A stretch of DNA of 64,000 nt from the NCBI RefSeq assembly GCF_003226255.1, contig NZ_QJST01000002.1:62001-126000 (forward strand). Reading direction: 5' to 3'. This document shows positions 3,322-7,155 of this stretch, piece after piece. Numbering within the stretch: position 1 is the stretch's first letter; each line of letters opens with the position of its first letter. The notes beneath the pieces are model-generated. The model saw only the letters and a list, made by a program, of their open reading frames with translations. It was not told the DNA's origin and ran no database searches. The translations under genes were made by a program, and so were the position numbers. The stretch is from Idiomarina fontislapidosi. GTDB lineage: Bacteria; Pseudomonadota; Gammaproteobacteria; Enterobacterales; Alteromonadaceae.

Positions 3322-3618
3322 ATGCAATTTGAAGACCTCATTAATAGTATGAGCCAAGATACTTACGAACGCTTGGTGAGCGCTGTCGAAACCGGTCGTT
3401 GGCCCGACGGTGCGAAACTTTCAGAAGAACAATTGGAAAACTCCCTTCAGCTAGTTATGGCCTATCAAGCTAAATTTCTCGATAGCGATCAACACTACAC
3501 GGTGGGGAAAGACGGGCGCATAGTCACGAAATCAAAAAGTGAACTAAAGCGCCAATTTTCAGAGCAGGGCGGTGCAGACACAATTGCACGCTTTGACCTT
3601 AAAGATGACGCGGAATAA
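3322..3618 (+). CDS. yeaC: YeaC-family (DUF1315) protein
   Basis: A 98-aa soluble protein. The N-terminus (MQFEDLINSMSQDTYERLVSAVETGRWPDG) and the motif with QLVMAYQAKF are typical of DUF1315/YeaC. The family has no proven function. The C-terminal third is charged and probably disordered. It starts 8 bases after the zinc-ribbon gene and ends 8 bases before the sulfoxide reductase gene, so it belongs to the same operon. Gene order next to a msrC/yebR homologue and proQ-prc agrees with gammaproteobacterial relatives. Confidence 0.85.
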   Translation: MQFEDLINSMSQDTYERLVSAVETGRWPDGAKLSEEQLENSLQLVMAYQAKFLDSDQHYTVGKDGRIVTKSKSELKRQFSEQGGADTIARFDLKDDAE

Positions 3619-3626
3619 GAGGCCTT

Positions 3627-4097
3627 ATGCAAGCAGTATCAGTGCGTGATGACATCGTGACCCAATGCGAAGCCATCACAACCGGTGAACCCGATTTAAT
3701 CGCCAATCTAGCCAACATTTCAGCTCTCATTTTTGACCAGTTCGAAAATATCAATTGGGCAGGATTTTATCTGACCCGCGGTGAACGCGAACTCGTATTA
3801 GGTCCATTCCAAGGTAAAGTCGCTTGCGTGCGCATTCCGTTTGGACAGGGCGTATGCGGCGTAGCAGCTGATTCCCAAACTTTACAGCATGTACACGATG
3901 TACATGATTTCAGTGGTCACATTGCATGTGACGCAGCCTCGAATAGCGAGGTTGTCGCCCCCATTATTGTCGACGGCAAAACCGTTGGTGTGTTAGACAT
4001 TGATAGTCCAAGCGTCGGCAGATTCAGTGCCGATGACGCAGAGATGTTCGCGAGAATCGCGGCAATCTGTGCTACCTTTAATTGGGATCAAATCTAG
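3627..4097 (+). CDS. msrC: Free methionine-(R)-sulfoxide reductase, GAF domain
   Basis: The 156-aa protein is a single GAF domain of the fRMsr (YebR) family, which reduces free L-methionine-(R)-sulfoxide in the cytoplasm, with electrons from thioredoxin in known members. Seen in the sequence are INWAGFYL, LGPFQGKVACVRIPFGQGVCGVAA and HIACDAASNSEVVAPI; these hold the three conserved cysteines used for catalysis and resolution. Length matches E. coli YebR (about 165 aa). In E. coli msrC/yebR is also directly upstream of proQ-prc. The next gene starts 4 bases after the stop. Confidence 0.92.
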   Translation: MQAVSVRDDIVTQCEAITTGEPDLIANLANISALIFDQFENINWAGFYLTRGERELVLGPFQGKVACVRIPFGQGVCGVAADSQTLQHVHDVHDFSGHIACDAASNSEVVAPIIVDGKTVGVLDIDSPSVGRFSADDAEMFARIAAICATFNWDQI

Positions 4098-4101
4098 CCC
4101 T

Positions 4102-4392
4102 ATGTTTGCTGATTTTGACATCCAACTGTATCTGGTAAATTACGAGGATACTGTTTTCTTCGAAAACCATGAAGAAGAAGCCGCCGACCAGATTAATGAA
4201 ATGCTGCATCTTATTAATGATCAGCGTTTAGAAACCGATACCGTAGAGCAGCTCGAAGAAGCCGTGCGTCTCACGTTATATGAGTGGATTGAGGAGCCTC
4301 GGCTGCTCGAGCTCGAATTCGATGATATGGACATGTTTGTTCGTACTGTTTTAGAAAACGTCCGTGAACAGGAAGAAGATTGGAATGAGTGA
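4102..4392 (+). CDS. Highly acidic small protein overlapping proQ
   Basis: A 96-aa protein I do not recognise. It has about 20 Glu and 10 Asp, only 5 Arg and no Lys, so its net charge is near -25. Hydrophobic residues recur regularly, which predicts helices, and there is no signal peptide or membrane segment. Start is the ATG at 4102, four bases after the msrC stop. No good ribosome binding site is visible, so translation may be coupled to msrC. Its last 8 bases overlap the proQ start at 4385. Placement between a repair enzyme and a strongly basic RNA chaperone suggests, but does not show, a link to ProQ. The frame also runs open upstream to about 4000 inside msrC, but that part is a shadow. 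Confidence 0.7.
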   Translation: MFADFDIQLYLVNYEDTVFFENHEEEAADQINEMLHLINDQRLETDTVEQLEEAVRLTLYEWIEEPRLLELEFDDMDMFVRTVLENVREQEEDWNE

Positions 4393-5020
4393 GTCTGAAA
4401 AACTGACGAAGAGTAAAGACGTCATTGCGTATTTGGCCGAACAGTTTCCTAACTGTTTCAGCCTACAAGGTGATGCAAAGCCTTTAAAGATCGGGATTTT
4501 TGAAGATCTGGCGAAACGTCTAGAAGACGATGAGAAGGTGAGCAAAACCCGTTTACGCACGGCGTTACGTCACTATACGAACAGCTGGCGTTATCTTCGC
4601 AGTGTGAAGGTTGGCAGTGAGCGCGTTGATTTAGATGGCGAGGCCGTTGAAAAAGTGCTTGATGAGCACCAACAACATGCCGCCGAAGCATTAAAAGAAT
4701 CAAAGGAACGTGCTGCTGAACGCGCAAAACAGCGTAAAGCCGCAGATACAAAATCAGAAGACGCACGTAATAAGCCTAAGAAGAAGCCTGCGCCTGCGAC
4801 AAAGGCGAATAAAAAGCCTAAACCTGCACGCAAGCCCGCACCTAAGCTGAAAGATGTTGAACTTAATAGCCTTTCTGTGGGTCAACAGGTTCAGGTGAAA
4901 GCAGGAAACCGTCCAATGCCAGGCACTGTTGTCGAAATCGACAAAACCGATGTGCAAGTGCAGTTGGCTAACGGTCTTAGCATGAAAGTGAAAGCGGAAA
5001 ACGTATTTGTAAAACAATAA
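4385..5020 (+). CDS. proQ: RNA chaperone ProQ
   Basis: Global small-RNA and 3'-UTR binding protein of the FinO/ProQ family. The 211-aa protein has a FinO domain at about residues 5-115 (AEQFPNCFSLQGDAKPLKIGIFEDL, then RTALRHYTNSWRYL), a Lys/Ala/Pro-rich flexible linker (about 100-155) and a C-terminal Tudor-like domain (about 155-211, with VGQQVQVKAGNRPMPGTV). The start is the ATG at 4385, preceded by AGGAAG; an upstream GTG at 4364 would only add residues absent from the family. It overlaps the acidic gene by 8 bases and precedes prc by 22, the same proQ-prc pairing as in E. coli. Confidence 0.95.
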   Translation: MSESEKLTKSKDVIAYLAEQFPNCFSLQGDAKPLKIGIFEDLAKRLEDDEKVSKTRLRTALRHYTNSWRYLRSVKVGSERVDLDGEAVEKVLDEHQQHAAEALKESKERAAERAKQRKAADTKSEDARNKPKKKPAPATKANKKPKPARKPAPKLKDVELNSLSVGQQVQVKAGNRPMPGTVVEIDKTDVQVQLANGLSMKVKAENVFVKQ

Positions 5021-5042: not shown

Positions 5043-7103
5043 ATGAAGTCAGGAATGTTTAAATTAAACGCGTTAGCTTTACTGGTCTTAGCCCCGAGCG
5101 CGTTGGCGATTCCACCTACGCATGAAATTTCTGAGTTACCTCAACTTGAACAAGAAAGTCAGCACGACACGGTCAGTGAGCGTGTTTTGTCTTACTTTAC
5201 GCGTTATCACTTTTCGCAGCCTGAATTAAACGATCAATTATCTGAGCAGATCCACGAGCGTTACTTAGAAATGCTCGACTTTAATAAAATGTTCTTATTA
5301 AAGTCAGATGTCGCTGCATCGGAAGAGTACGCGCGTTTGTTTGACGACATGCTCGAAAGCGGCGAACTGGAAGTGGCTTATGATTTGTACCAAACCAGTT
5401 TAGAACGCCGTTTTCAACGTTATGTTTATGCGCTCTCACTGCTTGATGAAGAAAAGCCGATGAGCTTTGATGAAGAGGGTGAGAAGTATTATTACGATCG
5501 CGAAGAGGCCGACTGGGCAAAAGACGAAGAGGCGCTGAACGCGTTGTGGCAGCAACGTGTTAAATACGATGCGCTCAATTTAAAGCTCGCAGGCAAAGAG
5601 TGGCCTGATATTGTCGAGACCTTAGGCAAGCGCTATAACAGCGCACTGAACCGTCTAACTAACTCGAAAAGCGAAGACGCATTCCAGGTCATTATGAATG
5701 CTTTTGCGCGCTCGATTGAACCACATACAAGCTACCTGTCGCCTGCTAACTCTGAGCGTTTTCAACAGAACATGAACCTCGAGTTAGAAGGCATCGGTGC
5801 AGTACTGCAGTCGGAGTACGATTACACCGTGATCCGCAGTCTTGTGCCGGGCGGACCCGCCGATAAAACCGGAGAGTTATCGCCTGAAGATAAAATCATC
5901 GCTGTTGGCCAAGGTGTTGGTGACGATGCCGAAGAGTTCGTCGACATCATTGGTATGCGTCTTGATGACGTGGTCGATATGATTAAAGGACCGAAAGGGT
6001 CTTCGGTTCGTTTACAGGTGTTAGAGGCGTCACAAGGCGTTGGTGGTACACCGAAAGTGGTCGAGATTGTTCGCGATAAAGTTAAATTAGAAGACCGTGC
6101 CGCTAAGGCGCATGTCGAGGTCCCAGAAGATGGCCCCAATAAAGGTCGGAAAATGGGTGTCATCGAGATCCCAGGTTTTTATAACAACCTCACTGCCGAT
6201 GTTAAGAAATTAATTGACGACCTTAAAGCGGATGAGGTTGAGGGTATCGTGGTTGATTTGCGTAGCAACGGCGGTGGTGCTCTTAACGAAGCCATTAGTC
6301 TAACGGGCTTGTTCATTGACGAAGGTCCTGTTGTACAGGTGAGTGATGGTCGTGGTCACGTTGAAGTGAGCAAGGATCGTGATGGTGTGACCTATTATGA
6401 TGGACCTTTAGTTGTATTGGTGGATCGTTACAGTGCGTCGGCTTCAGAAATTTTCGCGGCTGCGATGCAAGATTATAAGCGTGCTCTCATCGTGGGTGAG
6501 AACACCTTTGGCAAAGGTACAGTGCAACAGCACCGTGGTTTAAATCGCCGCTTTGACTTCTTTAGTGAGCCCTTAGGCAGTGTGCAATACACGATCGCTA
6601 AATTTTATCGTATTGATGGTGGTAGCACCCAGTTAAAAGGCGTCGCGCCTGATGTCACCTTACCTTCGTATGTTGAATCATCAGAGTGGGGCGAAAGTCG
6701 CGAAGATAACGCATTGCGGTGGGATCAGATTAAACCCGCTCAATATGATACCTTTAGCTATCTTGATAGCGCAGAGATTCAATCATTGAACAGCAATGCA
6801 CATCAACGTCTCGAAAAAGATCCAGAGTTCGCTTATATCTTCAAAGATATTGAAGAGTTGCGTAACAACATGGAAAAAACGTGGGTCAGCCTGAATCTTG
6901 AAGAGCGCGAAAGTGAGCAAGCGGCCGATAAAGAAGAACGTTTGCAGCGTGTTAATGACCGCCTTAAGCGATTGGGCATGGAGCCAGTAGAGTCGATAGA
7001 CGATGTTGATGACGAAGTGCTCGAAGTCGATCCATACCTGAATGAGACTATCTCAGTCGCATTTGAATTTATTGACGATGTGAAGTTAGCTCAGAACGAC
7101 TAG
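5043..7103 (+). CDS. prc: Tail-specific carboxy-terminal protease Prc (Tsp)
   Basis: Periplasmic S41 protease that degrades proteins with apolar C-termini and trims cell-wall enzymes. The 686 aa start with a signal peptide (MKSGMFKLNALALLVLAPSALA). A PDZ domain lies at about 245-335 and the S41 catalytic core at about 365-550. By alignment with E. coli Tsp (Ser430, Asp441, Lys455), the catalytic residues are Ser466 in RYSASASE, Asp477 in AMQDY and Lys491 in TFGKGTVQ. The charged C-terminal domain of about 140 aa is typical. ATG at 5043 has AGGAG at 5030-5034. It ends the operon at a clear terminator. Confidence 0.96.
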   Translation: MKSGMFKLNALALLVLAPSALAIPPTHEISELPQLEQESQHDTVSERVLSYFTRYHFSQPELNDQLSEQIHERYLEMLDFNKMFLLKSDVAASEEYARLFDDMLESGELEVAYDLYQTSLERRFQRYVYALSLLDEEKPMSFDEEGEKYYYDREEADWAKDEEALNALWQQRVKYDALNLKLAGKEWPDIVETLGKRYNSALNRLTNSKSEDAFQVIMNAFARSIEPHTSYLSPANSERFQQNMNLELEGIGAVLQSEYDYTVIRSLVPGGPADKTGELSPEDKIIAVGQGVGDDAEEFVDIIGMRLDDVVDMIKGPKGSSVRLQVLEASQGVGGTPKVVEIVRDKVKLEDRAAKAHVEVPEDGPNKGRKMGVIEIPGFYNNLTADVKKLIDDLKADEVEGIVVDLRSNGGGALNEAISLTGLFIDEGPVVQVSDGRGHVEVSKDRDGVTYYDGPLVVLVDRYSASASEIFAAAMQDYKRALIVGENTFGKGTVQQHRGLNRRFDFFSEPLGSVQYTIAKFYRIDGGSTQLKGVAPDVTLPSYVESSEWGESREDNALRWDQIKPAQYDTFSYLDSAEIQSLNSNAHQRLEKDPEFAYIFKDIEELRNNMEKTWVSLNLEERESEQAADKEERLQRVNDRLKRLGMEPVESIDDVDDEVLEVDPYLNETISVAFEFIDDVKLAQND

Positions 7104-7125: not shown

Positions 7126-7155
7126 AAAAAGCCGCCACTTTGTGGCGGTTTTTTT
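7126..7155 (+). terminator. Rho-independent terminator after prc
   Basis: Stem CCGCCAC (7132-7138) / GTGGCGG (7142-7148) with a TTT loop, preceded by five A and followed by seven T. Confidence 0.93.

Follow-up and report, generated by a model that had tools for sequence, protein, structure and literature searches.

The stretch of DNA analysed here, referred to below as the window, comprises 64,000 nucleotides of the Idiomarina fontislapidosi genome (RefSeq assembly GCF_003226255.1, contig NZ_QJST01000002.1, positions 62,001 to 126,000 of the forward strand). It contains a forward-strand cluster in the order DUF1315 gene, GAF/msrC-like gene, a short gene for a very acidic protein, proQ and a prc-like protease gene (Table 1). 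The stop codon of the msrC-like gene and the start codon of the acidic gene are separated by 4 nt, and the 8-base overlap between the acidic gene and proQ described in the original prediction is present as stated. Consensus matching found no terminator-like site on the forward strand in the interval separating msrC from prc. The prc gene itself contains two weaker forward-strand sites, and the hairpins that follow prc belong to a set of five terminator-like sites where shuffled sequences gave 4.2, i.e. a number near chance. A search for RNA elements between positions 2800 and 7300 returned nothing credible, with one chance match.

Table 1. Features of the cluster around the acidic gene (positions are those of the window).
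Feature	Positions	Strand	Basis
DUF1315 gene, upstream of msrC	3322..3618	+	Pfam PF07023
msrC (yebR)-like gene, GAF-domain protein	3627..4097	+	Pfam GAF_2 and GAF; name partly assumed
Acidic-protein gene, 96 aa	4102..4392	+	ATG to TGA ORF; homologues; purifying selection; AlphaFold2 model
Putative Shine–Dalgarno-like stretch for proQ within the acidic gene, AGGAAGAAG	4370..4378	+	Inferred by reading the sequence
Overlap of acidic-gene stop and proQ start, 8 nt, ATGAGTGA	4385..4392	+	proQ ATG at 4385, acidic ORF stop at 4392
proQ (FinO domain, basic linker, C-terminal domain)	4385..5020	+	NF003434; Pfam ProQ and ProQ_C
prc-like protease gene, downstream end of the cluster	5043..7103	+	ORF; synteny in homologous loci; name presumed
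Terminator-like hairpin and T run, after prc	7131..7146	+	Consensus match only
Matching terminator-like hairpin	7148-7132	−	Consensus match only

Two of the gene names are partly our own assumption: we take the GAF-domain gene to be msrC (yebR), and the protease gene is presumably prc, as judged from its context. The first of these names is supported by the order yebR–proQ–prc in other bacteria, as given in PMC8264596. This source places proQ between yebR and prc in both Dickeya and Escherichia coli and describes a promoter between yebR and proQ in Dickeya (PMC8264596). The order in these organisms is the same as here except that the acidic gene is missing from it, and the place of the Dickeya promoter is occupied here by the acidic gene.

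A count of the charged residues in the 96-residue ORF (30 Asp/Glu, five Arg, no Lys) agrees with the original description of about 30 acidic residues, five basic residues and no lysine; there are also two His, the pI is 4.05 and the net charge is −25. The charge per residue (−0.26) lies far below the mean of the 46 long non-overlapping ORFs of the window that served as the baseline (−0.023, s.d. 0.043; z of about −5.5). Comparison of two congeners (L256 and L257) gave a dN of 0.017, a dS of 0.59 and a dN/dS of ∼0.03, as expected under purifying selection; most other pairs of acidic genes are too diverged for dS. The ORF at 4102–4392 is a real gene and is under selection.

The AlphaFold2 model of the protein is all-helical with a mean pLDDT of 91.2, and its main predicted helices span approximately residues 24–41, 48–62 and 73–94. 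A Litorilituus/Colwellia-type homologue (L138) was likewise predicted to be all-helical (mean pLDDT of 91.3). Foldseek gave no match at E ≤ 0.001 for the acidic-protein models, and the best structural VIA Z was 6.7, to a de novo design, so that there is no clear relative in the PDB; this lack is not proof of a new fold. At the sequence level, the best Pfam score for the window's protein was 16.9 bits (Dpoe2NT) against a cut-off of 24, NCBIfam gave no match, and PHROG and PDB sequence searches gave no convincing match. A 22-member alignment of the family reached best E values of 0.0086 in Pfam and 0.0039 in NCBIfam (NF003383), from one member each, and no family in either database was matched by more than two members. 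We therefore rejected membership of a known protein family on the Pfam, NCBIfam, PHROG and PDB results. A mobile origin was also rejected, as the plasmid and phage collections held no match to the one homologue used as a probe.

Residue conservation was assessed on 46 proQ-linked acidic proteins, because alignment A3 is biased at residues 17–24 by the search motif; 42 of these 46 rows were not picked by that motif and were still found by their likeness to the acidic family. Asp or Glu occupies position 29 in 100%, position 70 in 98% and position 72 in 93% of the set, and Asn32 is invariant. All 46 proteins are strongly negative (net charge −17 to −31), as are 79 of 79 in a separate proQ-linked set (−18 to −37, the latter being the most acidic linked protein).

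The original prediction asked whether the acidic gene always precedes proQ in Alteromonadales. Within the family of the window (f1) it does so in every sampled genome that has it. A profile search of 147 f1 genomes found the acidic gene in 144, representing 51 of 52 genera and including all 138 genomes of the best quality, and ProQ matches occurred in exactly the same 144; the three genomes that have no acidic gene also have no proQ match and are 81–85% complete. Of the 145 profile matches in these genomes, 144 lie directly upstream of proQ, the exception being a weak match within a 551-residue ORF. Across 295 genomes of the order, BLAST found 24 with a match at E ≤ 0.01, with proQ adjoining in 23 of the 24 loci, and the 22-row profile found 35: 24 from f1 (every f1 genome in the set), nine from family f16, one from f6, which is of the Ferrimonas type, and one chance match. 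A second scan, of named genomes that partly overlap with the 147-genome sample (Ferrimonas, Colwellia, Thalassotalea, Rheinheimera, Pseudoalteromonas and others), confirmed 89 loci; the best 80 were retained, and proQ adjoins in 79 of them.

In genomes where it is found, msrC is normally the gene just before the acidic one. In seven loci of a redundant set of 172, which come from five genomes (G194, G719, G680, G694 and G695), an msrC search at E 1e-3 gave nothing and other genes lie upstream. The upstream sequence covered was ∼1.5 kb in three of the genomes, with 3 kb for one locus, and ∼1.15 kb for L109 and L110. All five genomes still have the acidic gene beside proQ: the linkage partner is proQ, not msrC.

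The spacing of the pair is less constant than its order. The 8-nt overlap is found in all five genomes of the window's genus that were compared, counting the window itself, and in a single sister-genus genome; most other loci show no overlap. For 79 other loci, the acidic-gene stop and the estimated proQ start are −5 to 91 nt apart, with a value of zero or less in six (L128, L129, L131, L132, L146 and L148). Two further family loci overlap by 4 nt (L111) and 1 nt (L112), and in the family sample proQ lies as much as 195 nt beyond the point where the profile match ends. The 8-nt overlap suggests translational coupling of the acidic gene and proQ in the genus of the window.

Outside f1, f16 and one genus of f6, the 295 order genomes gave no match other than the chance one, and the expectation of a universal pairing in the order does not hold. 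Among 20 order regions upstream of proQ, the acidic gene is present in L087 (Ferrimonas type) and L095 (f16) and is lacking in the other 18. In 12 of these 18 (L086, L089–L091, L094, L096–L101 and L103) msrC precedes proQ and the interval contains no ORF of this kind; the other six have no msrC match. Loci that we take to be Shewanella-like, from their kinship with Ferrimonas, carry the acidic gene in 0 of 11 cases. The msrC–proQ space in these loci (L086 and L235–L244) is 254–285 nt long; a decayed copy within it was considered and rejected, there being no remnant in any of the 11. A TATAAT box lies near the start of this space in L086, L235 and L238, as if a promoter took the place of the acidic gene.

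ProQ itself is kept in the lineages that have no acidic gene. On a ProQ tree, the f16, Shewanella-like and Ferrimonas sequences form one supported group, and loss of the acidic gene in the Shewanella-like line is therefore possible; independent gains are possible too. The tree needs at least three changes of the presence label, with a shortest solution of five. It serves only as a guide and is not reliable everywhere, since it joins the window's own ProQ, on a long branch, to f15 ProQs that have no acidic neighbour.

More distant samples contained few relatives. In 369 genomes of the class there were nine matches (three from f1, one from f63, three from f140 and two by chance), and in 249 genomes of the phylum there were six, all from f1 or of the Ferrimonas type. 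The f140 proteins, found in four of six f140 genomes, are homologous to the acidic family with a probability of 99.4% by profile comparison, a score raised by the presence of the f63 protein in both of the compared alignments. No ProQ match was found in the 2.4–7 kb stretches around the genes of seven f140/f63 relatives. The original prediction would have been weakened by homologues commonly lying away from proQ; the 144 linked family genomes speak for it on this point, and the seven distant relatives show that the fold of the acidic family is not bound to ProQ, because these homologues have no proQ nearby. Their net charges are −5 to −12, compared with −17 to −37 for the proQ-linked proteins, a contrast that rests on just seven unlinked proteins from two families. 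Extreme acidity accompanies proQ linkage. The f140 (L057–L059, L062, L063 and L251) and f63 (L203/L250) proteins form another branch of the family, of lower acidity; a genome has up to two copies, and neither proQ nor msrC nor prc lies in the stretches examined.

Gram-negative bacteria have few global RNA chaperones, and ProQ is one of them. The window's ProQ (211 residues, 44 Lys/Arg, pI 9.69) scores 261.7 bits against the NCBIfam equivalog NF003434, for which the cut-off is 127. Among 100 ProQs, 80 with an acidic neighbour and 20 without, Lys35, Arg58, Tyr70 and Arg80 are invariant, and Lys54 occurs in all 80 ProQs that have the neighbour and in 17 of the 20 that do not; the numbering is that of the window's ProQ, and the correspondence with the E. 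coli list is by residue number. According to PMC7192607, E. coli ProQ requires residues with these five numbers to interact with RNA. With all five conserved, the ProQs next to an acidic gene should therefore still bind RNA.

The basic character of ProQ differs little between the two groups. The mean charge of the linker is +9.5 with the neighbour (n = 80) and +8.45 without (n = 20), that of the FinO part +1.8 versus +0.5 and that of the C-terminal part +1.4 versus +0.9; the linker averages 53.8 versus 45.0 residues. The correlation of linker charge with acidic-protein charge (ρ = 0.27, uncorrected for kinship) has the wrong sign. The idea that the acidic protein masks the Lys-rich linker pointed out in the original prediction gains no support, as the linker charges of the two groups are close and do not rise with the acidity of the neighbour, and simple electrostatic pairing with the linker is unsupported. 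Eight ProQ positions differ most between the groups (7, 26, 30, 63, 183, 200, 202 and 206), a thresholded comparison that is confounded by kinship; the last four lie in the C-terminal domain. Position 202 is Val in 20 of 20 ProQs without the neighbour and in 13 of 80 with it (Thr in 67), and position 206 is His in 18 of 20 without and nine of 80 with.

A comparable arrangement exists for another RNA-binding regulator: fliW and csrA are neighbouring genes, and the FliW fold is a β-barrel. According to two sources, FliW antagonizes the global RNA-binding regulator CsrA by binding beside its RNA site, with repulsion of RNA by a negatively charged FliW surface as one proposal (PMC7652899, PMC7829508). 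The acidic protein resembles FliW in being small and negatively charged and in having an RNA-binding regulator as its putative partner. It differs in that the presumed partner is ProQ rather than CsrA and in its predicted all-helical structure, and neither the protein nor its 22-member alignment matched the FliW profile in Pfam or NCBIfam. Nucleic-acid mimics such as ArdA, Ocr and DUF440/HI1450-type proteins are also small and strongly acidic. The acidic protein shares these properties (net −25 on 96 residues); it has no convincing sequence match in Pfam, PHROG or the PDB and no Foldseek match at E ≤ 0.001, and its gene is chromosomal, the phage and plasmid collections having given no match with a single homologue as the probe.

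We propose, with about even confidence, that the acidic protein is a dedicated partner of ProQ that is made together with it and tunes its RNA binding as a FliW-like brake. The case for a dedicated partner rests on the adjacency without exception in the sampled family, the frequently tight spacing, the confinement of extreme acidity to linked members and a ProQ that is basic and apparently RNA-competent. From these we infer physical binding to ProQ, the contact surface and the antagonistic direction. The two proteins would be produced together, with translation coupled through the overlap in the genus of the window, such that each ProQ would meet a nascent acidic partner. This partner would be compact and all-helical, and its conserved Asp and Glu residues near positions 25–29, 44–45 and 70–75 may contact a basic face of ProQ. 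Such contact could tune RNA binding by ProQ, most probably by lowering non-specific or excess binding, and the protein would then act as a stoichiometric brake on ProQ as FliW does on CsrA. Of the possible directions, we regard inhibition of RNA binding as the most likely, by analogy with FliW and CsrA. Several findings weigh against the proposal: ProQ persists in lineages that have no acidic gene, among them the Shewanella-like loci, its linker charge does not follow the acidity of the neighbour, and homologues with no proQ nearby exist in f140 and f63.

The same linkage and acidity would also be expected of a positive partner, one that stabilizes or solubilizes ProQ or links it to an RNase, ribosome or Hfq complex while leaving RNA binding unblocked. 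The group-separating C-terminal positions 183, 200, 202 and 206 hint at a contact away from the FinO face, subject to the kinship of the sequences, but extreme acidity suits a competitor of RNA at least equally well, and we consider a positive role somewhat unlikely. The acidic gene could instead be a passenger of a stable operon, retained for a job unrelated to ProQ, such as a stress response. That msrC and proQ adjoin in the 12 regions described above without the acidic gene, and that relatives occur away from proQ in f140 and f63, would fit such a role. Against it, the pair persists where msrC does not adjoin, none of the 144 sampled proQ-bearing family genomes is without the acidic gene or carries it elsewhere, and acidity goes with proQ linkage; the passenger explanation is thus unlikely.

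Two further explanations turn on the junction of the genes. The acidic protein might bind free ProQ during translation, report its level and set proQ translation, in which case the overlap or close spacing would be a working feature. The 8-nt overlap in the window's genus, with a Shine–Dalgarno-like stretch in the upstream gene, accords with this autoregulation, as do the six other loci with a distance of zero or less and the short overlaps in L111 and L112. The spacing is not conserved, however, with gaps of up to 91 nt in the 79 loci and, measured from where the profile match ends, of up to 195 nt in the family sample, which makes autoregulation distinctly improbable. A leader ORF, for which translation would matter to proQ and the product would not, also draws on the overlap in this genus, but it is very hard to reconcile with protein-level conservation across 51 genera, the dN/dS of the two congeners and the confidently predicted fold, and we regard it as most improbable.

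A bolder form of the brake proposal, which we put forward tentatively, is that a FinO/ProQ-domain RNA chaperone here has the first dedicated antagonist of its kind: a folded and acidic protein, resembling RNA and produced alongside ProQ, that sets the amount of ProQ free to bind RNA throughout the family. The original prediction knew of no ProQ antagonist at this site, in accord with the open-access literature, where none is among the matches listed; a protein controlling ProQ is likewise absent from these matches, most subscription papers and bioRxiv lying outside that literature. Wording about a ProQ antagonist or inhibitor occurred in the open-access literature just as 'anti-ProQ', presumably for antibodies, and the main text of PMC9977716 contains neither 'alteromonad' nor 'acidic'. 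The acidic family has no entry in the databases searched and lies directly upstream of proQ across the sampled family, and it offers a defined starting point for studying the control of ProQ activity. If the protein is an antagonist, ProQ activity would be set by partner switching, as CsrA activity is by FliW, and not just by ProQ abundance; if it blocks RNA binding, it might serve as a tool for switching ProQ off.

Some variation within the linked family deserves mention. A copy in G263 that appeared to be decayed, with an internal stop in the match, was rejected as such, the protein being intact and shorter (∼86 residues). Records titled Marinobacter nauticus and Endozoicomonas sp. (L130 and L133) carry Ferrimonas-like and Colwellia-like copies and may be misnamed. 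Acidic proteins of the Rheinheimera type (L144, L149, L150, L154, L160, L164 and L165) carry an Asp- and Glu-rich C-terminal tail.
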